Positions 2-62,157 of a stretch of 64,000 nucleotides of DNA are shown one piece after another (positions within the stretch are counted from its first letter, which is position 1; each line of letters starts with the position of its first letter). This stretch comes from Thalassobaculum sp. OXR-137 (lineage in GTDB: Bacteria > Pseudomonadota > Alphaproteobacteria > Thalassobaculales > Thalassobaculaceae). The stretch covers positions 3,828,001-3,892,000 of the forward strand of contig NZ_CP139715.1 in the NCBI RefSeq assembly GCF_034377285.1. Direction: 5' to 3'. A program made the translations under genes and the position numbers. The notes below the pieces were generated by a model. It was not told the DNA's origin, did no database searches, and was given only the letters and a program-made list of their open reading frames with translations.

Positions 2-355
2 GGCCGCGTCGCAATCGCGGAGAACCTGTCGAAGATCCCGGCGGACAAGATCCTCGTCCTCACCTCGCCGGACGGGATGCTGGCGCGCTTCGCCGCCGCC
101 GATCTGGCCGACAGCGGCCGCGAGGTGGTCACGATCGACGGAGGCACGGCCGCCTGGAAGGTCGCGAACCTGCCGATGCAGAGCGGCATGACGGCCGTAC
201 TGTCGGAGCCGAATGACAGTTACCTGCGGCCCTACGACCGCACCAACAAGGCGGAAATCGAGAAGGCGATGAACGACTACCTGACGTGGGAAGTCGCGCT
301 GGTCGAGCAGATCAAGAAGGCCGGCGGCATCAGCTTCAAGCACTTCCCGGCCTGA
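2..355 (+). CDS. Rhodanese-like sulfurtransferase, C-terminal part (gene enters from the left)
   Basis: The frame is open from base 2 with no start in the window, so only the last 117 codons are present. The residues DKILVLTSPDGMLARFAAAD followed by VVTIDGGTAAW are the end of a rhodanese domain, where the strand after the active-site loop leads to the TIDGG/LxGG-W motif. The tail (LRPYDRTN, NDYLTWEVALVEQI, FKHF) is the kind seen in multi-domain rhodanese-related proteins of proteobacteria. The catalytic cysteine, if there is one, lies upstream of the window. The gene converges on the HD-GYP gene with 21 bp between them. The family call is fairly sure; the exact substrate is not. Confidence 0.75.
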   Translation, partial: GRVAIAENLSKIPADKILVLTSPDGMLARFAAADLADSGREVVTIDGGTAAWKVANLPMQSGMTAVLSEPNDSYLRPYDRTNKAEIEKAMNDYLTWEVALVEQIKKAGGISFKHFPA

Positions 356-49909: not shown

Positions 49910-49999
49910 TGGCGGACGGGGTGGGATTCGAACCCACGAGGGGCTTGCACCCCTGGCGGTTTTCAAGACCGCTGCCTTCAACCACTCGGCCACCCGTCC
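49910..49999 (-). tRNA. tRNA-Ser (anticodon TGA)
   Basis: On the minus strand the acceptor stem is GGACGGG/CCCGTCC, the anticodon loop is CTTGAAA (TGA), there is a long variable arm (GGGGTGCAAGCCCC), the T-arm is GTGGGTTCGAATCCCAC, and CCA is encoded. It is 90 nt. It directly borders the integrase side of the prophage and is the likely integration target. Confidence 0.97.
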
Positions 50000-50070: not shown

Positions 50071-51225
50071 CTAGTTCCCGAGGACGCCTCGCAGGGCCGC
50101 ATCGATACGCGAGGCAGCATCCTCCTGCAAGCCTGGAACGGCGTGGCTGTAGACGTCCAGCGTGATCGCCACCGAGGCGTGGCCAAGCCGTTCGCTGACG
50201 ATCTTCGGATGGACGTTGACGCGGAGCATGTCGCTCGCGTGCGTGTGCCGCAGAGTGTGGAGCGTGACCCTGGGCAGGCCCGCCCGCTTGGCCATGGCGA
50301 CGAATTCCTTGCTCATCCCGTCCGGCTGGACCGGTTCGCCGTCGATCTTCGTGAAGACCAGCATGGCCGGATCCTTCCCCAGACCGAGCTGCAGCCGCTC
50401 TTTCGCCTGCCGGGCGCGGTGCTCCTTCAGTTCCTCGACCACGGACGCCGACAGCGCGATTGTCCGCCGTCCCCGCTTGGTCTTCGGTTCCTTGAAGCGC
50501 AGACCCGTCTTCGTGGTCTCCAGCGACTGGGCCACGGTGAGGGAGGAGCGGGGAAGGTCGATATCGGACCAGCGCAGCCCCAGGATCTCTCCACGGCGCA
50601 GGCCAGTTCCGAGAGCCAGGAACACCGGAGCGAACAGCCGGGTAGGGCGGGCGATGGCGAGGAGGGCGCGAGCCTCGTCCGGTGAAAGGATGCGCATATC
50701 GCCCCGCTCCACCTTCGGCTTGGCGACATCCTCAACGGGGTTGCGCGCGATCAGCCCAAGGGCCCGGGCGCGCTTCAGCGCCACGTTCAACACGCGATCG
50801 AAATGCCGGACGGTCTGAGGGGACAGGCCGCCCTTGCCATCCCGCCGGCCGGACTCCAATGCCTTGGCATAGAACTGCTGGATCGCCGCGGCCGACAGTT
50901 GGTTGAGGGTAACGGCGCCGAGACCTGGCACCAGATGATGGTTCACGATCTCGGTGTATCGCTCCCAGGTCTTCGCGCTGGTCCCGTGCTTCGCCTGGGC
51001 AAGCCAGTCGCTGAGCCACTGCGCGACCGTCAACTTGCCAGCGTTCGCATAGGTCCCGTGGTCGATCGTGGTAAGCCGGTCCCGGAGAACTTTCTGCGCC
51101 TCGCGTTTGGAGCCGCGGACGGTCTCAAACTTGGTGCGGCGCTTCCCAGTCAATGGGTCTCGACCGATGTCGTACTTGACCTCCCAAGATCCTGCGCCGC
51201 GTTGGCGGATGCTGCCGTTAGCCAT
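50071..51225 (-). CDS. int: Tyrosine site-specific integrase
   Basis: The protein has 384 aa. The N-terminal arm-binding part (GSIRQRGAGSWEVKYDIGRD) and SAM-like core (TVAQWLSDWLAQAKHGTSAK) precede the catalytic domain. The active-site residues are visible: first Arg in GTGLRRGEILGLRW, Lys in the KTKRGRRTIAL hairpin, His and Arg in HTLRHTHAS, a further His in ERLGHASVAITLD, and the nucleophile Tyr in DVYSHAV. It inserts and, with an excisionase, excises the element. It reads toward tRNA-Ser, 72 bp from it, on the 5' side of the tRNA gene, which is unusual. Confidence 0.95.
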   Translation of the reverse strand: MANGSIRQRGAGSWEVKYDIGRDPLTGKRRTKFETVRGSKREAQKVLRDRLTTIDHGTYANAGKLTVAQWLSDWLAQAKHGTSAKTWERYTEIVNHHLVPGLGAVTLNQLSAAAIQQFYAKALESGRRDGKGGLSPQTVRHFDRVLNVALKRARALGLIARNPVEDVAKPKVERGDMRILSPDEARALLAIARPTRLFAPVFLALGTGLRRGEILGLRWSDIDLPRSSLTVAQSLETTKTGLRFKEPKTKRGRRTIALSASVVEELKEHRARQAKERLQLGLGKDPAMLVFTKIDGEPVQPDGMSKEFVAMAKRAGLPRVTLHTLRHTHASDMLRVNVHPKIVSERLGHASVAITLDVYSHAVPGLQEDAASRIDAALRGVLGN

Positions 51226-51229
51226 TTCC

Positions 51230-51691
51230 CTACTCCTTGATTAGGCCGCCCTTGGCCAGACCCTCGAAATGCTCAGCCAGTTCACTTACGAGTTGGTCAC
51301 AGTCTGCCTTGGTCGTTCCTAGATCAGCGGTCATGAGGGCTGCGACGGTTGCGACGATCGCAGGCCGAAGACAATCCTGATCCCGCACCCATGCGCCGGA
51401 TTGGATGTCTGGTCGGTTCTTACTGAGCGCCTTCATCTTTCCCGTATGGGCGAAGTACCTCGTAAACAGATCCAGAAGTTCGACGAGCTCATTGCTGGCC
51501 TCTGCAAGTGGCTCGCGAAAAGAGCGCTCTAACCTCATCTCGGCTTCTTGACTTTGCGATCTGCCGGACAATTCCGCCGCGGCGTCGAGACGACGCTTGA
51601 CGTCTGGCGTCACGCGGAGACCTAGGGATACCCGTCCCTCCCGGCCTGGCTCTTTGGTTGGCCGACCCCGCCGCTTCCGTTCTTCGGTCAT
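51230..51691 (-). CDS. Ribbon-helix-helix DNA-binding protein
   Basis: The protein has 153 aa. A basic lead (MTEERKRRGRPTKE) is followed by a ribbon-helix-helix of Arc type: GRVSLGLRVTPDVKRRLDAA, AELSGRSQSQEAEMRLERSF. The C-terminal 90 residues have no clear family. It is transcribed with int (4 bp between them) and is divergent from the excisionase-like gene, with two matched 14-bp palindromes between the starts. It is therefore probably the local regulator of integration and early genes, perhaps in place of a cI-type repressor. That role is inferred. Confidence 0.7.
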   Translation of the reverse strand: MTEERKRRGRPTKEPGREGRVSLGLRVTPDVKRRLDAAAELSGRSQSQEAEMRLERSFREPLAEASNELVELLDLFTRYFAHTGKMKALSKNRPDIQSGAWVRDQDCLRPAIVATVAALMTADLGTTKADCDQLVSELAEHFEGLAKGGLIKE

Positions 51692-51725
51692 TTCGTACCC
51701 TCGCGTCCCTATTGGTGTTTATATT

Positions 51726-51739
51726 CTATACCGGTACAG
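51726..51739. promoter_or_regulatory. Operator copy 1 in the divergent int / early control region
   Basis: CTATA-CCGG-TACAG has the same 5-4-5 dyad as the copy at 51775 with one arm mismatch. On the minus strand TAGAAT and TATAAA (candidate -10 boxes of the regulator-int transcript) overlap or touch it, so binding would block that promoter. Confidence 0.55.
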
Positions 51740-51774
51740 AAAAATATTGCAAGAGACCTCCGAGGATCGTATTT

Positions 51775-51788
51775 CTGTATCAGTACAG
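51775..51788. promoter_or_regulatory. Operator copy 2 in the divergent int / early control region
   Basis: CTGTA-TCAG-TACAG is a perfect 5-bp dyad. Its centre is 49 bp from that of the copy at 51726. It lies 30 bp before the excisionase-like start, near a candidate rightward promoter (TTGCAA, 17 bp, TATTTC). Confidence 0.55.
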
Positions 51789-51818
51789 CAAACCACATCT
51801 AGCTAATAGGAGGCCAAT

Positions 51819-52031
51819 ATGCACAACGCTAATCCCACCGACAGAACGCGCGCTGCCAAACCGCAACGTCAGACGTACACGCTGGACGAGTTCGGGGCGA
51901 TGCTGGGAGTGGGTCGAAATCAGGTCTATGCCGCCGCGCGGGAAGGCCAAATTCCCACCATCAGGATTGGCAAGCGCATACTGGTTCCTAAGGTCGCCGG
52001 CGATCGCATGCTGAGCGGGGAGGCGGCCTGA
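51819..52031 (+). CDS. Excisionase/AlpA-like helix-turn-helix protein
   Basis: The protein has 70 aa, with an ATG 6 nt after AGGAGG. The MerR-like short DNA-binding fold is visible: YTLDEFGAMLGVGRNQVYAA, then AREGQIPTIRIGKRILVPK. This is the common form of phage excisionases and AlpA-type activators. It lies opposite the integrase operon, as expected for a recombination directionality factor or an early activator. Confidence 0.75.
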   Translation: MHNANPTDRTRAAKPQRQTYTLDEFGAMLGVGRNQVYAAAREGQIPTIRIGKRILVPKVAGDRMLSGEAA

Positions 52032-52034
52032 TCT

Positions 52035-52190
52035 ATGTCCCGCCCGAAAGCGCGAAGCCCCGCCGTCCGGGTGGATCGCGGGGCCTCGAAATTCGTCCAG
52101 CTTGCCGGCCAGGACGGTTTTAAAAGTAGCCCAAACCCCGCAGAAACGCAAGCATTCTGCCCTGACACCACCCGGCGGAGGTGGACGTGA
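52035..52190 (+). CDS. Possible small phage protein, translationally coupled
   Basis: An ATG 3 bp after the excisionase-like stop opens 51 codons (MSRPKARSPAVRVDRGASKF at the start). It ends in TGATG, overlapping the start of the initiator gene. GGGAGG lies 11 nt upstream. The product is basic and matches nothing I know. The coding region also contains a GCCCCGC/GCGGGGC stem, so a non-coding leader is the alternative. Confidence 0.4.
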   Translation: MSRPKARSPAVRVDRGASKFVQLAGQDGFKSSPNPAETQAFCPDTTRRRWT

Positions 52191-53008
52191 TGAGCCTTCG
52201 CGCGATCACATGGGCTTGGTCGATTTCCGGGGTATCGGCGCCTCAAAAGCTCGTCTTGCTTCGCTTGGCAGACACCGCCAACGACGACGGGTCCGAGGCC
52301 TGGCGAACCACCGCACGGATGGTCGAAGAGACGGGCTTGTCGCGCCGGGCGGTGCAGGGTGCGTTGCGAGGTCTTGAAGCCGCTGGACTGATCGCCGTCG
52401 CGCGAGCCGCAAACGCTGGCCGGAAACTCACGACGGTCTATCAACTACCCGTGGCCGATCGTCATCTCCAGAATGAGGTTGAGGAACGCCCGACGGGCGC
52501 AGGAGATGCGCCCCTACAGGCGCAGGAGGTGCGCCCCTCGGGTCTTACGGGCGCAGGATATGCGCCCGTAGGGGCGCAGGAGATGCGCAGGACGGGCGCA
52601 GGAGATGCGCCCTCTCCATACTATCTCCATCCAATATCTCCGATAGAGAGAGAACGCGCGCAAGCTTCGTTGCTGGAAGAGGGTGGTAGCCCGAAGCCAA
52701 CCCGGCCGGTGCGGGCAACAAGAATCAGTTCCGACTGGTGGCCTAGCCAGGCCGACTGGGAATTCGCTGCCCGGGAGGGGATGAGCGACAACGCCATCGA
52801 CCGGGAGGCCGCCCGGTTCCGGGACCATTGGCTCGCCAAGAGCGGGCGCGACGCGGCCAAGGCCGACTGGTCAGCGACGTGGCGCAACTGGATCCGGCGG
52901 GCTCACGAGTTCAGGCCGGGCGGACATGGCTCGAAACCAGCCAGCCATATCGACCAAGTCGGGGAGGTGTTCGAACACATCCGGCGAGGGCAGGAGGTGC
53001 AATCGTGA
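52190..53008 (+). CDS. Phage replication initiator, lambda O-like (N-terminal winged helix)
   Basis: The protein has 272 aa from the ATG at 52190 (GGAGG 8 nt upstream). Residues 1-95 are a winged helix typical of phage initiators (RAITWAWSISGVSAPQKLVL, WRTTARMVEETGLSRRAVQG, TTVYQLPV). Residues 100-145 are a repeated Gly/Ala/Pro linker with TGAGDAP units; its DNA holds five palindromic iterons. Residues 180-272 (SSDWWPSQADWEFAAREGMS, ...RFRDHW, ...WSATWRNWIRRA) match the C-terminal domain common in such proteins, which contacts the helicase loader. The architecture, including origin within the gene, is that of lambda O. The next gene starts in its stop codon. Confidence 0.85.
   Translation: MSLRAITWAWSISGVSAPQKLVLLRLADTANDDGSEAWRTTARMVEETGLSRRAVQGALRGLEAAGLIAVARAANAGRKLTTVYQLPVADRHLQNEVEERPTGAGDAPLQAQEVRPSGLTGAGYAPVGAQEMRRTGAGDAPSPYYLHPISPIERERAQASLLEEGGSPKPTRPVRATRISSDWWPSQADWEFAAREGMSDNAIDREAARFRDHWLAKSGRDAAKADWSATWRNWIRRAHEFRPGGHGSKPASHIDQVGEVFEHIRRGQEVQS
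52495..52612 (+). repeat. Five palindromic iterons: candidate phage replication origin inside the initiator gene
   Basis: Five 19-bp copies of GGGCGCAGGAGATGCGCCC lie at 52495, 52518, 52549, 52572 and 52594. Copies 1 and 5 are identical; copy 2 starts with A and has GGAGG; copy 3 has GGATA; copy 4 ends in AG. Each has 7-bp palindromic arms (GGGCGCA/TGCGCCC) around 5 nt. Spacings are 23, 31, 23 and 22 bp, about two helical turns (three for one gap). An AT-richer, pyrimidine-rich tract with ATACTATC and CAATATCTCC (52613-52660) follows directly, as a duplex-unwinding region would. Confidence 0.8.
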
Positions 53009-53679
53009 GCCGTCTTCCGGCGACAGTGGCCCGGGAAACGGGCCTGTCGACTATCCGCCTGGACCTGGAGCGTGGCCCGTACGGATGGCTCGCGTACTCC
53101 ATGCCCGACCGATACAGCCGTCTCCCGACGCTAGCCGAGGAAGACGAGATCCGCCGAGATCTTGTCGCGGCCACTGAACCGGTTGAAGTGAGCGAACTGG
53201 AGCGGGCAATCGCCCGGCTTGTCGCAGCGTATCCACAGCGCGGCGCAGCAGATATCCGCGGCTATGTGATCGGCCTGGCCGAACACCTCGCCGGATTTCC
53301 TGCGGATGTGGTCGCCCGGGCCTGCTGGGAAATCGTCCACGCGAAGGCGTTCTTGCCCGCCGTAGCCGAGGTTGTCGCCCTGGCCGAAAGTTACGCGGGT
53401 CCGCGCCGGCATGCCCTACGCGCGCTGGACGCGGTCGACGTGGAGCGCGAGCGCCGGCGGAAAGTCGAAGCCGAGCAGGCACGGCAGGAAGACTCCCGCC
53501 AGCGGTGGCGTGCGGCCGAGACTCAGGTGCTCGACGCCATCGCCGCGGCAAAGCCGGGCCACGATGCTGCCGAGATCTTCGACCGGCTGGGCATTAACCA
53601 CCGCATCCGCCTCAAGCTTGCGGCGATCGGGTCGGATGACGACCTGGTCGCCCTTGTGGACGCGCTGGAGGTCGGCTGA
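53005..53679 (+). CDS. Phage protein, possible helicase loader (lambda P-like position)
   Basis: The protein has 224 aa with a GTG start at 53005, 8 nt after AGGAGG and overlapping the initiator stop. A conserved helical block is visible (ERAIARLVAAYPQRGAADIR, LAEHLAGFPADVVARACWEI, KAFLPAVAEVVALAE), followed by a coiled-coil region rich in Arg/Glu/Gln. This block occurs in phage genes next to O-like initiators. The position suggests a helicase loader or primosome part, but no Walker motif is seen, so the role is inferred from context. Confidence 0.6.
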   Translation: MSRLPATVARETGLSTIRLDLERGPYGWLAYSMPDRYSRLPTLAEEDEIRRDLVAATEPVEVSELERAIARLVAAYPQRGAADIRGYVIGLAEHLAGFPADVVARACWEIVHAKAFLPAVAEVVALAESYAGPRRHALRALDAVDVERERRRKVEAEQARQEDSRQRWRAAETQVLDAIAAAKPGHDAAEIFDRLGINHRIRLKLAAIGSDDDLVALVDALEVG

Positions 53680-53939
53680 TGACCCGCCCCCGCACTGACA
53701 ATCCCAAGCCCGCCACCCTCCGCACCCGCAAGTGGCGGGCACTTCAGAAGGCCGGCAAGGGCACGTTTTTCTATCGCCAAGAAGCCGACGACCGAATTGT
53801 CGGATTACTTATAGATCACGGAATAATCGAGGCGAATGTCAGCGAGGATCACAAGGTACTGAGCGATACGGTCTACCGGCTAGTTTTCGAAACCCTCACT
53901 ACCAAAAGGAACGCGTTCGATACGTCGCGCTCGGATTAG
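53679..53939 (+). CDS. Hypothetical phage protein
   Basis: The protein has 86 aa; its ATG overlaps the preceding stop (TGATG). It is basic and opens MTRPRTDNPKPATLRTRKWR, with ADDRIVGLLIDHGIIEANVS in the middle, a likely helix-turn-helix-like or helical fold. The second half is AT-richer than its neighbours. No family is recognised. Confidence 0.6.
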   Translation: MTRPRTDNPKPATLRTRKWRALQKAGKGTFFYRQEADDRIVGLLIDHGIIEANVSEDHKVLSDTVYRLVFETLTTKRNAFDTSRSD

Positions 53940-55380: not shown

Positions 55381-55574
55381 CCGACTCCAGCGACGGCGGC
55401 GACGACTTCAAAACTAGCTTTTGGGACGCCCTGCGCGGCGCGATCGAGGCCGCAGTCGAGGAGGCCGTCGAACCGCTGCACGCCAGGCTCGATGCAATTG
55501 AAATCAGGCTCGGCGCAGTCAATGGCGCCATCGCCGCGTTTGAGGCCGTCTGCGCCAGGAAGGCTGGCCGATAA
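55377..55574 (+). CDS. Small hypothetical phage protein
   Basis: The protein has 65 aa with a GTG start at 55377, overlapping the previous stop. It is acidic and helical (FWDALRGAIEAAVEEAVEPL, HARLDAIEIRLGAVNGAIAA), probably a short coiled coil. No family is recognised. Confidence 0.5.
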   Translation: MTDSSDGGDDFKTSFWDALRGAIEAAVEEAVEPLHARLDAIEIRLGAVNGAIAAFEAVCARKAGR

Positions 55575-55969
55575 TGCCCAAGCGCCCACCACTCGCTGTT
55601 AGGCAAGCCGATGCCAAGCCGGCTGGCCGGTGGCGCGAGATCGACGCCCGGCGCGGCACTGCCGCTCAGCGAGGCTACAACGCGCGATGGCAGCGGATGC
55701 GGCGGCGGTTCCTATCCCGCCCTGAGAACGCGCTGTGCGTCATGTGCCGGACCGAGGGGCTGACCACCGAGGCGACGGTGGTTGACCACATCGTGCCGCA
55801 CCGAGGCGACCCAGCTCTGATGTGGGACGAGACCAACCTGCAGCCGCTCTGTGCATCGCACCACGGCCGCGAGAAACAGCAGATGGAATCCACCGGTCGG
55901 GTGAAGGGTGCGGACCTATCCGGCCGGCCGGTCGACCCTGGCCACCCCTGGAACCGGAGCGACCAATGA
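55574..55969 (+). CDS. HNH endonuclease (phage)
   Basis: The protein has 131 aa. The motif set RGYNARWQRMRRRFLSR, LCVMCRTEGL, VVDHIVPHRGD, NLQPLCASHHGREK is a classical HNH fold with two zinc-binding CxxC-type pairs and the catalytic His of VDHI. Such enzymes stand next to the terminase genes in many siphophages and help DNA packaging. Here a second HNH gene follows at 56202, but no terminase does. Confidence 0.9.
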   Translation: MPKRPPLAVRQADAKPAGRWREIDARRGTAAQRGYNARWQRMRRRFLSRPENALCVMCRTEGLTTEATVVDHIVPHRGDPALMWDETNLQPLCASHHGREKQQMESTGRVKGADLSGRPVDPGHPWNRSDQ

Positions 55970-56202
55970 GCGACACGACTGCCCAGGTGCGGGCGATCAT
56001 TGAAGGGGCGATCACAGACCTGATGCGCCTCGGCATGGAACGGGAAAGCGCAGCCCGCCTGCTGGCGATCCAGGGCTTGATCCGCATGGCATCGGATGCG
56101 GCCCGGAAGGAGCTGCTCTACCTCGTGGATCCTGAAAACCACGCCAGCCCGGAAGAGATCGCGGCTTGTGGTGATGAAGACGACGATGAGGGCATCGACT
56201 GA
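55966..56202 (+). CDS. Small hypothetical phage protein
   Basis: The protein has 78 aa from the ATG at 55966 (ATGA overlap with the HNH stop). It is helical (VRAIIEGAITDLMRLGMERE, SAARLLAIQGLIRMASDAAR) with an acidic tail (EEIAACGDEDDDEGID). Its stop overlaps the next start. No family is recognised. Confidence 0.55.
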   Translation: MSDTTAQVRAIIEGAITDLMRLGMERESAARLLAIQGLIRMASDAARKELLYLVDPENHASPEEIAACGDEDDDEGID

Positions 56203-56624
56203 TGCCGAGCCGCCCGCCAGTACACCGCGCCCCCCGATCGGCAACCCGCCAGCAGCAGCGCCGCAGCACCGACGCGCGCCGCTATCGGGAGAACGGGGAA
56301 CTGCGCCGCTGGTACATGCGCGCCGCGTGGCGCAAGCGGGTGCGGCCGGACCATCTCTCATCGGAGCCGCTCTGTCGCATCTGCCGTGTGGTGTTTGATC
56401 GGGTCGAGCTTGCCACGGACGTGCACCATACGGAGCCGCCGACGAGCTGGGAGAAGTTCCTGGCCGGTCCTTTCGCCTCGCTGTGCGCTGACCATCACCG
56501 CGAGATCACCGCCGCAATCAGCCACGGCCGGCGGCCCTTCCACCTCATGCGGAACGCTGACGGACAGCCGGTCGCACCACTCCACGACGCCCTGTGGCGC
56601 GAGCTCGGGGCGCCGACGCCATGA
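56202..56624 (+). CDS. HNH endonuclease (phage, second copy)
   Basis: The protein has 140 aa. It is very basic at the start, then WYMRAAWRKRVRPDHLSSEP, LCRICRVV, ATDVHHTEPP and FASLCADHHREIT give an HNH fold with its own zinc-binding cysteines. The two HNH proteins are different in sequence and not a fresh duplication. It is the last early-region gene before the 133-bp junction that precedes the tape measure. Confidence 0.85.
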   Translation: MPSRPPVHRAPRSATRQQQRRSTDARRYRENGELRRWYMRAAWRKRVRPDHLSSEPLCRICRVVFDRVELATDVHHTEPPTSWEKFLAGPFASLCADHHREITAAISHGRRPFHLMRNADGQPVAPLHDALWRELGAPTP

Positions 56625-56757: not shown

Positions 56758-58575
56758 ATGGCGACTGCAACTGAAGAGCTCCTCCTCCGTCTCGACGCCA
56801 CCGCCGAAGGATTGCGGCGCGAGCTGCGCAAAGCGGACGATACCGTCGGCGACTTCGCCCGGAAGACCGACCGGCGCATGAAAGAAGTCGACGAAGCGAT
56901 GAGCAGGGTCAACCGGGCGGGCAACCTGGTGACGAAAGGTCTCGGCGCGCTCGGCGTGGCGCTGTCGGTGGGGGCCGTCGTCAACTTCACGAAGTCGAAC
57001 ATTGCCAGCGCCGATTCACTCGTCAAAATGGCCGACGCCCTCGGCCTGACGATCGAAAGCCTGCAGGAGTACAGGTTCGGTGCCGCGCGATCGGGTGTGG
57101 CGACGGAGGCGCTCGACAAATCGCTCGAGCAGTGGATCCGCCGGCTGGGCCAGGCGCAGGCGGGGACCGGCAACCTTCTCCCGATCCTCAAACAGTACTC
57201 CATCGCTTTGCGGGATAACGATGGGCGCCTGCGCTCAACCGAGGCAGTGCTTGGCGACTACGCGGACGCCCTGGCCAGCGCTGTCAGCCCCCAGGAGCGC
57301 ATGCGGCTGGCCACCGAGGCGTTCGGTAAGTCCGGTGGGCCGATGGTCAACCTGCTCAAGAATGGCTCCGCCGGCCTCGCTGATCTCGCGACCCAGGCCA
57401 ACGATGCGGGTGTCGTCCTCGGTGGCGACCTGGCCCGCCGATCTGAGGAACTGAACGACCGCCTCGGTATCCTATCCGAGCGGGCGGACACGGCCGCGCA
57501 GACCTTCGTGCTCTCCATGGCGCCGGCGATCGAAGCTGCGATCGGGGTTTTCGAGCGGCTGTCCGTGGCTGTGGCCGATGCGGTCGGTGGGCTTGGCCCG
57601 CAGACATTCATGTTCGGCGACGAGCTCGACGCCGCCCGGGCGCAGGCGGAAGCGCTTCGCGGCGAACTGGAAGCACTGGCCGATGTGGACGGGCGGTCGG
57701 CCACCCGGCAGAGCATCGCCTTGCGCGCCCGCCTCGGCGCCCTGGAGGCGGTGGACCCCTACAAGGAACTTGCGCGGGTCCAGGGCGAGATTGTCGACCT
57801 CCAGGACAAGATCGCCAATGGTGGCCGCGCCCGCGGCAAGAGCGCTCAGAATACGGCCGCACAGGAGCGCCTCGCCGAGCTGGAGAAAGAGTCCGTCGCG
57901 ATCCAGGGCTTCATCGACCGAGCCGAGCGTGGTGGGAAGGCAGCCGCCGACGTGGTCGCCTCGACCAGCATGAAGGCGTCCGCAGCGGTCAATGACAACC
58001 TCACCAGCCTGGACACCCAGCTTGCCCGGTCGCGGAAGGCGTATGAGGCGCTGGCCGGATCCGGGCTCGCCGCGTTCGAGAAGATCTCCGCCGGCTTCGA
58101 TCTGGACCAGAAAGCGGCCGATGCCGCCGAGGCTTTCAACAGCGCGAACAAGGCGCTTATCGAGTCCGGTCAACTCCAGTCCCGCACCGCCGCCGACTAC
58201 CGCGACACCCTCGGCGAGATCGCCGAGCTGCAGGAACGCACCGCCGATCGCCAGGCGCTGGACCAGTACATCGCCGGCCTAGGCGAGGAGTACGATCTGG
58301 CGAAGCTTCGGCTGCAGGTGGGTGAGGACGAAGCGAAGATCCGGACAGATATCGCCAAGCTGCGCAAGGCAGGCGTCCAGATCTCCGACACCGAGGAAGC
58401 GGCCATCCTGAAGACCGCCGCCGCGACCAAGAAGCTGTCCGACCAGTGGGACACGCAGACCGAGGCGCAGAGGAAAGCGGCCCGGGCTGCGGAGGACGCG
58501 GCTAAGAGCCTGGACACCATCCCCGATGAACACGCCGAGGCATTCGGCGCCCTGGTCATGGAGGCCCTTCGATGA
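56758..58575 (+). CDS. Phage tail tape-measure protein
   Basis: The protein has 605 aa. The N-terminus (EELLLRLDATAEGLRRELRK, ADDTVGDFARKTDRRMKEVD) and the following MADALGLTIESLQEYRFGAA, LNDRLGILSERADTAAQTFV blocks are the usual tape-measure opening of long-tailed phages. The rest is repetitive helix with Ala/Glu/Arg heptads. It sets tail length inside the tail tube. It is on the short side for the family. The ATG at 56758 has only a distant GGAGG (15 nt). Confidence 0.8.
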   Translation: MATATEELLLRLDATAEGLRRELRKADDTVGDFARKTDRRMKEVDEAMSRVNRAGNLVTKGLGALGVALSVGAVVNFTKSNIASADSLVKMADALGLTIESLQEYRFGAARSGVATEALDKSLEQWIRRLGQAQAGTGNLLPILKQYSIALRDNDGRLRSTEAVLGDYADALASAVSPQERMRLATEAFGKSGGPMVNLLKNGSAGLADLATQANDAGVVLGGDLARRSEELNDRLGILSERADTAAQTFVLSMAPAIEAAIGVFERLSVAVADAVGGLGPQTFMFGDELDAARAQAEALRGELEALADVDGRSATRQSIALRARLGALEAVDPYKELARVQGEIVDLQDKIANGGRARGKSAQNTAAQERLAELEKESVAIQGFIDRAERGGKAAADVVASTSMKASAAVNDNLTSLDTQLARSRKAYEALAGSGLAAFEKISAGFDLDQKAADAAEAFNSANKALIESGQLQSRTAADYRDTLGEIAELQERTADRQALDQYIAGLGEEYDLAKLRLQVGEDEAKIRTDIAKLRKAGVQISDTEEAAILKTAAATKKLSDQWDTQTEAQRKAARAAEDAAKSLDTIPDEHAEAFGALVMEALR

Positions 58576-61043: not shown

Positions 61044-61919
61044 TCATTCTTCGTCCGGCGCCAATCGCCGTCGGGCCTCTTCAACCGCCTCACGAATTTG
61101 CCTCTCCACTCCTCTTGAGAGCCTGACGTTGGTCAGCAGCCAATCGGCGGTATCGACGCCGTCCAGAGCCCATTCTCTGTTCGGGCTCCGCATAGGCTCT
61201 AGAATTTGCCGGACGATTGCGGAGCTAGACGACCCGGATCCGCCAACAGCACCGGCATGCGGATAGTCGGCCGGAGCGAGTGAGAAATTTCGATTTAGCA
61301 GGGCTCTCGAAGCCTCGGCATTTGTGTCGGGGCGCTGCGTCAATTCCTCCAACAGCCTCGCGCCATGGATCGGATGATAGGCAGGCGAGCGCAAAGCCTC
61401 GCGCAGCGTCGGTAGGTCGGATTCATCCGGATTGATTGGCTCATCCAGACGCCCGATGAGTCGTCGTATACAAAGCACCATATGATCTAGGAAAAATAAA
61501 TCCTGCTCGAAATAAATATAGCCGAACACTAAATATCTATTGTCGGAGTGTCCAAATTCCGCAAGGCGTTCTATGAACTGTTCAATCGTCTGATCATGCC
61601 AGTATTCGTCTTCAACCCAATCTGGCCGTTGCATGCTTTCAGGCAAAAGCTCTCCAGCCAAGTCGTTGACCTCGTTATATAGCCTTACGATATCGTGCCC
61701 CTGCGTCCGGGCACTGTGGCCGTTCATCAACAGCACAGCCTTGAAGTACTTCTCGAGGCAATGGGCGCTGAGCCAAAAGAAGGTCGACATCATGCGGGTG
61801 CTCATTGCCCAGCGCGCGGTGACGTAATCCTCGTCTGCGGTGCGCACGAACATGTCGTAGATAATCTGCGCTCTCATAGCCAACTGGTAGAGAGATCGAT
61901 GGTCAGCCTGGTCCGTCAT
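61044..61919 (-). CDS. HEPN-like domain protein, partner of the upstream XRE regulator
   Basis: The protein has 291 aa from the ATG at 61919 (AGGAAGG upstream), starting inside the end of the XRE gene. Residues 30-110 carry the HEPN-type helical pattern (FFWLSAHCLEKYFKAVLLMN, then GHDIVRLYNEVNDLAG). No certain RX4-6H ribonuclease motif is seen (RSPAYH is a weak candidate). The C-terminal 150 residues are unknown. The middle of the gene is much more AT-rich than its surroundings, a sign of foreign origin. With the XRE gene it has the layout of a toxin-antitoxin or defence module. That reading is inference. Confidence 0.6.
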   Translation of the reverse strand: MTDQADHRSLYQLAMRAQIIYDMFVRTADEDYVTARWAMSTRMMSTFFWLSAHCLEKYFKAVLLMNGHSARTQGHDIVRLYNEVNDLAGELLPESMQRPDWVEDEYWHDQTIEQFIERLAEFGHSDNRYLVFGYIYFEQDLFFLDHMVLCIRRLIGRLDEPINPDESDLPTLREALRSPAYHPIHGARLLEELTQRPDTNAEASRALLNRNFSLAPADYPHAGAVGGSGSSSSAIVRQILEPMRSPNREWALDGVDTADWLLTNVRLSRGVERQIREAVEEARRRLAPDEE

Positions 61920-62157
61920 GGCCCTTCCTAAGCCGTACCCCGGCGCCGCCGCCATTCTCCGGTATTAACTCGACGCCGGCTTCCTCGATTGCTCGAATGA
62001 CAGCGGCGACGTTGTTGGCCAGCCCTGCCGCATTTCCGTCGCTCGCCTCCATTCGTCTCAGGGTCGCGACGGAGACGTTGGCCGCGGCTGCCAGGGTCTT
62101 CTGATCAAGCCCAGCCATGACGCGGGCTGCGGCGATCTGCCGACCGGAAACGTTCAT
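61903..62157 (-). CDS. XRE-family regulator (antitoxin-like)
   Basis: The protein has 84 aa from the ATG at 62157 (AGGAA 8 nt upstream); an ATG at 62184 is in frame but has no site. The helix-turn-helix reads VSGRQIAAARVMAGLDQKTL, AAAANVSVATLRRMEASDGN. It ends with IPENGGGAGVRLRKG, the tail common to alphaproteobacterial XRE proteins. It overlaps the HEPN-like gene by 17 bp and faces an operator dyad, so it probably represses its own operon. Confidence 0.8.
   Translation of the reverse strand: MNVSGRQIAAARVMAGLDQKTLAAAANVSVATLRRMEASDGNAAGLANNVAAVIRAIEEAGVELIPENGGGAGVRLRKGHDGPG

Follow-up and report, generated by a model that had tools for sequence, protein, structure and literature searches.

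A probable iteron origin inside the initiator gene of a phage-like element integrated in the genome of Thalassobaculum sp. OXR-137

We analysed a stretch of 64,000 nucleotides from the genome of Thalassobaculum sp. OXR-137 (contig NZ_CP139715.1, positions 3,828,001 to 3,892,000 of the forward strand; hereafter the window). The window carries an integrated phage-like element with a replication module made up of a winged-helix initiator gene and an overlapping downstream gene. Within the initiator gene is an array of five near-palindromic repeats (iterons), followed by a tract of lower guanine-cytosine (GC) content. The array is very probably an iteron origin of replication that lies in the gene for its own initiator. 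Positions are those of the window (Table 1), and the loci used for comparison carry L numbers.

The five iterons are 19 bp long, have the consensus GGGCGCAGGAGATGCGCCC and span 52495-52612. Matches to GGGCGCAGGAGATGCGCCC are expected by chance at a mean of 0.13 in the dinucleotide-shuffled 64-kb window, and none of 100 shuffles reached five. The arms form the inverted repeat GCGCA-N5-TGCGC around a centre of GGAGA, GGAGG or GGATA. Because the centres are asymmetric and alike, the five iterons share one orientation. The exact 17-bp form GGCGCAGGANATGCGCC occurs three times in the 5.65-Mb host genome, every time within the array. An original prediction, made by a model from the letters of the window, had proposed five 19-bp palindromic iterons with a spacing of about 23 bp. 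The repeats are found where it placed them, with 0-2 mismatches. The start-to-start distances are 23, 31, 23 and 22 bp, and the proposed spacing is thus correct for three of the four. The coding region of the initiator therefore holds several repeats in the range of 11-20 bp, and the AT-richer tract that adjoins them had also been foreseen. GC content at 52620-52679 is 0.50, compared with 0.65 for the initiator gene from the winged helix onward. This is the minimum among 60-bp segments (20-bp steps) across both replication genes and falls in the lowest 1.6% of segments in the initiator gene. DnaA boxes are about as frequent in the window as expected (nine near-matches vs 7.7).

Repeats within a gene may be repeats of the protein, and the likeness of the DNA would then be secondary to recurring TGAGDAP peptides in a flexible linker. 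Three of the five copies (iterons 1, 3 and 5) do encode TGAG(D/Y)AP. Iterons 2 and 4, however, are read in the other frame and encode QAQEVRP and GAQEMRR. In 500 synonymous-codon shuffles with the protein held fixed, the maximum was four copies (reached three times) and five were never obtained. Because two reading frames are used and synonymous shuffles never yield five copies, the array consists of repeats at the DNA level. The homologues described below also count against protein repeats, since nearly all of them use more than one frame and their pitch of 22-23 bp mostly avoids 21 and 24 bp. We consider protein repeats an extremely improbable explanation. The linker peptides are a by-product of the DNA repeats, as had been predicted. 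Peptide repeats kept after loss of the DNA arms would have spoken for the protein, and the homologues show the opposite pattern.

The initiator gene has two possible starts, of which the ATG at 52190 is likely the true one, as in relatives. Its protein matches PHROG 1032 (replication initiation, E-value 2.1e-30) and PHROG 391 (2.4e-18), families annotated as replication initiation or O-like, as well as Pfam HTH_36 (9e-8). In an AlphaFold model the winged helix and the C-terminal domain (residues ~181-240) are confident, and the linker has a predicted local distance difference test (pLDDT) score of 49-56 over residues 101-150. The iterons occupy codons 105-144, in this low-pLDDT linker, which agrees with the predicted placement of the array where the gene encodes its linker. 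VIA-align aligned little beyond the winged helix (residues 4-92) and identified nothing more specific than that fold; Foldseek gave weak matches to 5kbj, 4pql and 4pt7 (E-values 0.02-0.09). The C-terminal domain, with the consensus FRDYW.AK.G...K.DWSATWRNW, weakly resembles DnaT. It scores 17.2 bits against Pfam DnaT (PF17948, E-value 0.0042), under the cut-off of 25, and a profile of the domain (A5) has five PDB matches up to E-value 1, all of them DnaT (primosomal protein 1; 0.058-0.37). A DnaT-like domain with the WSATWRNW motif is also found in other phage and prophage proteins, behind N-terminal halves of various kinds (L007, L010, L012, L206 and others), and therefore looks like a mobile helicase-recruiting module.

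The module had been likened to lambda oriO/O/P. The iteron array in the initiator, the AT-richer tract and the coupled gene fit that plan, but the protein has no lambda O family match. It matches neither PF04492 nor TIGR01610, both of which lambda O matches (E-values 5.7e-36 and 5.4e-39). Alignment with lambda O itself is not significant (E-value 0.24), and the profile probability is 0.3%. A hidden Markov model (HMM) of the lambda O C-terminal domain, built in this analysis from five sequences, does not score the C-terminal domain of the initiator, which scores as DnaT-like. PHROG 391 bridges the two proteins, with residues 4-196 of the initiator on positions 1-193 and residues 140-292 of lambda O on positions 133-288. 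By sequence, the initiator is outside the lambda O family.

The gene coupled to the initiator was expected to be P-like. Its start does overlap the initiator stop, but it has no lambda P family match. We found no Pfam match up to E-value 1 (PF06992 and PF11417 included) and no match to PHROG 109; the best family link is PHROG 9804, of unknown function (E-value 0.0073). A profile of the protein compared with lambda P gave a probability of 2.8% (E-value 0.016) over 20 columns only. Profile A3, made from the coupled protein and six positional relatives, has SPP1 G39P (1no1, E-value 0.011) as its best PDB match. The protein may thus be closer to G39P than to lambda P, as this weak match suggests, and we tentatively regard it as a probable helicase loader. 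Ten genes at the same position behind other initiators were scanned; the one at L341 belongs to the lambda P family, and the one at L247 just reaches the PF11417 cut-off. Relatives of the coupled protein were found neither among phage records at E-value 0.01 nor in viral contigs, and 385 genomes of a class sample contain one weak relative besides the protein's own genome. The gene beside that relative has a marginal winged-helix score (E-value 0.0094).

The prediction had proposed a search of other phage initiators for repeats in the same place, and such repeats are common. Loci were collected using single proteins as queries, and a winged-helix HMM was iterated over the open reading frames (ORFs) of 281 loci. 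The 174 ORFs obtained fall into 61 clusters at 70% identity, one being the window gene; pattern-match loci (L088-L197) and repeats of the window gene (L001-L003, L239) were kept apart from the set. An iteron finder (16-mer, up to three mismatches) was run with 40 synonymous shuffles per cluster. At least three iterons, unequalled in all 40 shuffles, are present in 37/61 clusters and in 36 of the 49 whose winged helix is followed by 100 residues or more (window included in both counts). As a positive control, lambda O gave four copies at 20, 24 and 23 bp, the spacings of its annotated iterons. Leaving the window gene aside, 129 spacings peak at 22 bp (40) and 23 bp (27). Of the 79 within 20-25 bp, 67 are 22 or 23 bp and just nine are multiples of three, and copies lie in two or more frames in 35/36 clusters. 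One of the 37 positive clusters lacks 60 bp after the array; in all 36 scorable clusters, the window included, the 60 bp past the last iteron are below gene GC (mean -0.11, Wilcoxon 1.5e-11). The 60 bp ahead of the first iteron show little effect (lower in 21/36). Among 15 additional GenBank and plasmid loci picked by hand, 11 have at least three iterons with no shuffle in 40 equal. A second spacing class of 17 bp is seen on the upstream side of the array in clusters L302 and L315 and locus L540. The C-terminal domains of the 37 iteron-positive clusters are DnaT-like in 11, lambda-O-like in six, neither in 20 and both in none.

Palindromes could also serve as operators through which the winged-helix protein represses its own operon, or as hairpins, with no origin involved. 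The winged helix resembles MarR/CodY regulators, and the array as single-stranded DNA folds better than 200/200 shuffles (z -6.6). The array is, however, about 300 bp inside the gene, and a promoter consensus scan of 51600-53800 gave one promoter-like site (51752-51723, minus strand) and none near the array. The array is followed by an AT-richer tract, as is that of lambda O in the same analysis, the family is annotated as replication initiation, and C-terminal domains are DnaT-like in 11 and lambda-O-like in six of the 37 iteron-positive clusters. Operators or hairpins in place of an origin seem improbable to us. Autoregulation alongside origin function could still occur.

The recognition helix of the initiator is predicted at codons 54-67 and carries the motif R-x-x-Q. 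Across the clusters, identity of the winged helix correlates with similarity of the iteron (Spearman 0.42 over 666 pairs, and 0.25 for those under 50% identity; 0/500 permutations each). The 13 clusters listed as closest by iteron have winged helices 34-43% identical to the window's, and 12 of them are R-x-x-Q. The prediction had called the iteron GC-rich and different from that of lambda. It does differ from lambda's, but its core CGCAGnAnnTGC is common to the window and to Pseudomonas, Vibrio (L273) and Aeromonas (L274) phages and a Massilia plasmid (L275), all R-x-x-Q. The clusters listed as closest include L273, L274, L275 and contigs found by querying with a Pseudomonas phage protein, and Pseudomonas phage PotUPM1 (L540) has the same iteron as these. 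A strict core, CGCAG....(T/C)GC, is present in 11/16 R-x-x-Q clusters and 0/21 others (Fisher 5e-6). For the R-x-x-Q class, the recognition helix therefore appears, from these comparisons, largely to predict the iteron. A corresponding link between R-x-x-R helices and GGCA/TGCC arms, suggested by L543, was rejected, as R-x-x-R helices at L316, L221, L276 and L005 have other iterons. Among the papers listed in searches of open-access literature, none names in its title or abstract opening such a rule linking helix to iteron, or a survey of HTH_36 initiators that contain origins.

The strict-core test was post hoc and used related clusters, so we made a scan of viral contigs from DNA only, looking for CGCAGNANNTGC twice with a gap of 9-12 bp. 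It returned at least 120 stretches, and the fractions given here apply to that sample only. Within a winged-helix ORF, or no more than 60 bp past its end, are 51/120 stretches; such ORFs are 53/6274 of the total. R is present in 51/51 of these winged helices and R-x-x-Q in 46/51, and 15/51 are at least 70% identical to those collected earlier. Among the 18 clusters with under 70% identity to that collection, 15 are R-x-x-Q, compared with 20/61 in the earlier set. The scan thus supports the link between helix and iteron. Four R-x-x-Q helices occur in the hand-picked loci. Two have the strict core (L538, L540), one a GAA/TTC variant (L531) and one no array (L533). L538 and L540 appear closely related to L274 and L302 and contribute little further support. 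The same iteron was also sought elsewhere. Exact matches to GGCGCAGGANATGCGCC in viral contigs mark 110 stretches; among the 80 listed, one has two matches (482 bp apart) and the others have one. Three or more loose iteron matches within 300 bp were found at 0/110 loci, and two at four (L104, L113, L120, L123).

Several observations weigh against these readings. In the window, there is one spacing of 31 bp, and the right arm of iteron 4 is altered. Among homologues, the finder detects no array in 13 of the 49 long clusters, and the clusters are not independent, with one group from the Pseudomonas phage query making up 11/37. Single linkage reduces them to 24 lineages at 50% and 15 at 40%. With one vote per lineage, 22-23 bp is found in 48/56 and 30/37 spacings of 20-25 bp, respectively, and lineages other than the window's use more than one frame in 22/23 and 14/14. 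The strict core was defined on the same data on which it was tested, and the R-x-x-Q clusters are only a handful of lineages at 50%. It is missing from 5/16 of them; L332 and L341 are alike by eye, L327 is a variant, and L271 and L277 are genuine exceptions. L316 is R-x-x-R, though its iteron is among the closest to the window's. In the scan, 69/120 stretches are outside winged-helix ORFs; 58 of these contain at most two strict cores and resemble chance matches, and 11 have three or more. The coupled protein has no confident family and a poor model (mean pLDDT 65), and a fold search with this low-confidence model gave no match at E-value 0.001 and nothing interpretable.

If the array is an origin, it would likely work as follows. 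The N-terminal winged helix would bind the five iterons, probably as dimers, with the R-x-x-Q recognition helix reading GCA-N5-TGC half-sites. Initiators stacked at a pitch of ~22-23 bp would strain the AT-richer tract until it opens. The DnaT-like C-terminal domain may then hold the single strand, and together with the coupled G39P/P-like protein it may bring in the host DnaB helicase.

The element that carries the module is ~15.06 kb long and contains the integrase, the HTH_17 regulator (putatively excisionase/AlpA-type), the replication module, two HNH endonuclease genes, a tape-measure-like gene, DUF2513 and a HEPN-domain gene. Sequence comparison indicates that it is an insertion in tRNA-Ser. 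In three genomes of the same genus (L402-L404), the tRNA's 3′ half runs straight on into its 5′ half and the right flank found past 65057 here (75-85% identical over 1.4-1.6 kb). The evidence for this empty site comes from the tRNA and the right flank, since the chromosomal sequence left of the tRNA gave no match. The att repeats span the anticodon-containing 5′ half of tRNA-Ser(UGA), and the element is on the 5′ side. This leaves the host's own 5′ half at the opposite end, and transcription of the whole tRNA would have to start inside the element. L405, which belongs to a different genus in the family, has a second copy of the tRNA-Ser 5′ half ~1.5 kb away (1103-1192 and 2631-2674; 93% over 44 bp), as if a small or reduced element had used the same att site. 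The HEPN gene runs in the opposite direction to the replication genes and is a possible cargo or defence gene.

Terminase, portal and capsid genes were not found among the 23 proteins scanned with PHROGs, although a tape-measure-like gene and two HNH genes are present. The element could be either a satellite or a reduced prophage. It may also, as the original prediction had allowed, be a remnant, a decaying prophage in which a former origin is dead and the repeats persist by history, as its length of 15 kb, the missing structural genes and the altered arm of iteron 4 might suggest. On the other hand, the two replication genes and that of the integrase are open, the att repeats are identical over 43 bp and two iterons are perfect copies of the consensus. 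We think a dead origin unlikely, though it deserves more weight than the other alternatives, and prefer an origin with which the element may continue to replicate.

Table 1. Features of the integrated element and its replication module.
Feature	Position	Strand	Remarks
attL	49957-49999		43 bp identical to attR, within tRNA-Ser(UGA)
Tyrosine integrase gene	50071-51225	-	PF00589, E-value 7.5e-25; open
Small HTH_17 regulator gene	51819-52031	+	Pfam HTH_17, E-value 3.7e-8; PHROG 6401, E-value 2e-6
Initiator gene	52181-53008	+	Start GTG 52181 or ATG 52190; PHROG 1032, Pfam HTH_36
Initiator domains	residues ~4-90; ~91-150; ~178-246		Winged helix; low-confidence linker; DnaT-like C-terminal domain
Predicted recognition helix	52340-52381	+	Codons 54-67, R56-x-x-Q59 (SRRAVQGAL...); helix 55-67 of model; alignments
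Iteron 1	52495-52513	+	0 mismatches to GGGCGCAGGAGATGCGCCC
Iteron 2	52518-52536	+	2 mismatches; other reading frame
Iteron 3	52549-52567	+	1 mismatch
Iteron 4	52572-52590	+	2 mismatches; other reading frame; final two bases of right arm altered
Iteron 5	52594-52612	+	0 mismatches
AT-richer tract	52613-52680		Candidate unwinding element; GC 0.50 over 52620-52679
Putative helicase loader gene	53005-53679	+	G39P/P-like by position and weak profile match; start overlaps initiator stop
HNH endonuclease genes (two, neighbouring)	55574-55969, 56202-56624		Both PHROG 2323
Tape-measure-like gene	56758-58575		PHROG 9483, E-value 8e-32
HEPN-domain gene	61044-61955 (L396 13044-13955)	-	PF05168, E-value 1.7e-5
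attR	65015-65057 (outside window; L396 17015-17057)		43-bp repeat of attL

The plan of the module resembles several known systems. According to published accounts, lambda has iterons in the middle of the initiator gene, an adjoining AT-rich tract and an overlapping loader gene (PMC5043065, PMC7466680). The lambda iterons are likewise 19-bp inverted repeats, at a pitch of 20-24 bp. The window differs from lambda in iteron sequence, in having HTH_36 in place of Phage_rep_O and a DnaT-like C-terminal domain, in its five iterons with one 31-bp gap, and in a second protein that, unlike lambda P, does not match PF06992. Gene 18 of P22 and of phage L is described as holding in each case its own distinct repeats within the coding region (PMC8022706). 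Those repeats differ from the window's, and the partner gene 12 is given there as a DnaB-type helicase (PMC8022706). In SPP1, gene 38/oriL/gene 39 is reported to combine origin repeats inside the gene for the initiator with an AT-rich unwinding element and a distinct helicase loader (PMC6316719). The host group and iteron sequence are different, the coupled protein shows weak homology to G39P, and SPP1 has a second origin. Initiators of RepA_N plasmids and the RepA of PLE are described with an N-terminal domain on semi-palindromic iterons and a host-specific C-terminal domain (PMC7145576). The Foldseek matches 5kbj, 4pql and 4pt7 point to this group, but with low structural scores (E-values 0.02-0.09), and there was no sequence match in the family searches made. 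The element may belong with phage-inducible chromosomal islands, which combine an integrase, an AlpA-type regulator and a replication module of their own and depend on a helper phage; it has att sites, an integrase, an HTH_17 regulator and replication genes, and it also has a tape-measure-like gene.

Further counterparts are the HTH_36 initiators of Pseudomonas phage PotUPM1 (L540), the Vibrio phage (L273), Aeromonas phages (L274, L538) and the Massilia plasmid (L275). They share R-x-x-Q and CGCAG....(T/C)GC with the window, but have CCCC at the left flank in place of GGG. Their C-terminal domains are not of one kind. That of L273 is lambda-O-like, as is that of L302, which has the iterons of PotUPM1, that of L275 is DnaT-like and that of L274 is neither. 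In the R-x-x-Q class as a whole, DnaT-like domains are found in L084 and L275 and lambda-O-like domains in L273, L293, L302, L314 and L315.

Since an origin within the initiator gene is already described for lambda, Stx phages, P22, L and SPP1 (PMC7466680, PMC5043065, PMC8022706, PMC6316719), the element is one more case of a known plan. Less expected is that helix and iteron are linked across relatives and that this pairing is coupled with C-terminal domains of different kinds, for which the literature searches listed no paper. We lean, by a little, towards the winged helix and its linker iterons being a portable cassette, a binder with its own origin that follows the R-x-x-Q/CGCAGnAnnTGC rule, is spread across phages and plasmids from several groups of bacteria and becomes joined to unrelated helicase-recruiting domains. 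Its partners would be DnaT-like in the window and the Massilia plasmid and lambda-O-like in the Vibrio phage and Pseudomonas-type phages. With the origin where the two domains meet, the recruiting half could be exchanged while the binder and its site stay together, and this suggests why the origin is in the linker. Dozens of diverse phage initiators appear to hold an origin in their own linker at a pitch of 22-23 bp. If the rule holds, the specificity of initiators for iterons, usually studied phage by phage, would be open to swaps of helix and site, and the origins of uncultured phages could be read straight from sequence.

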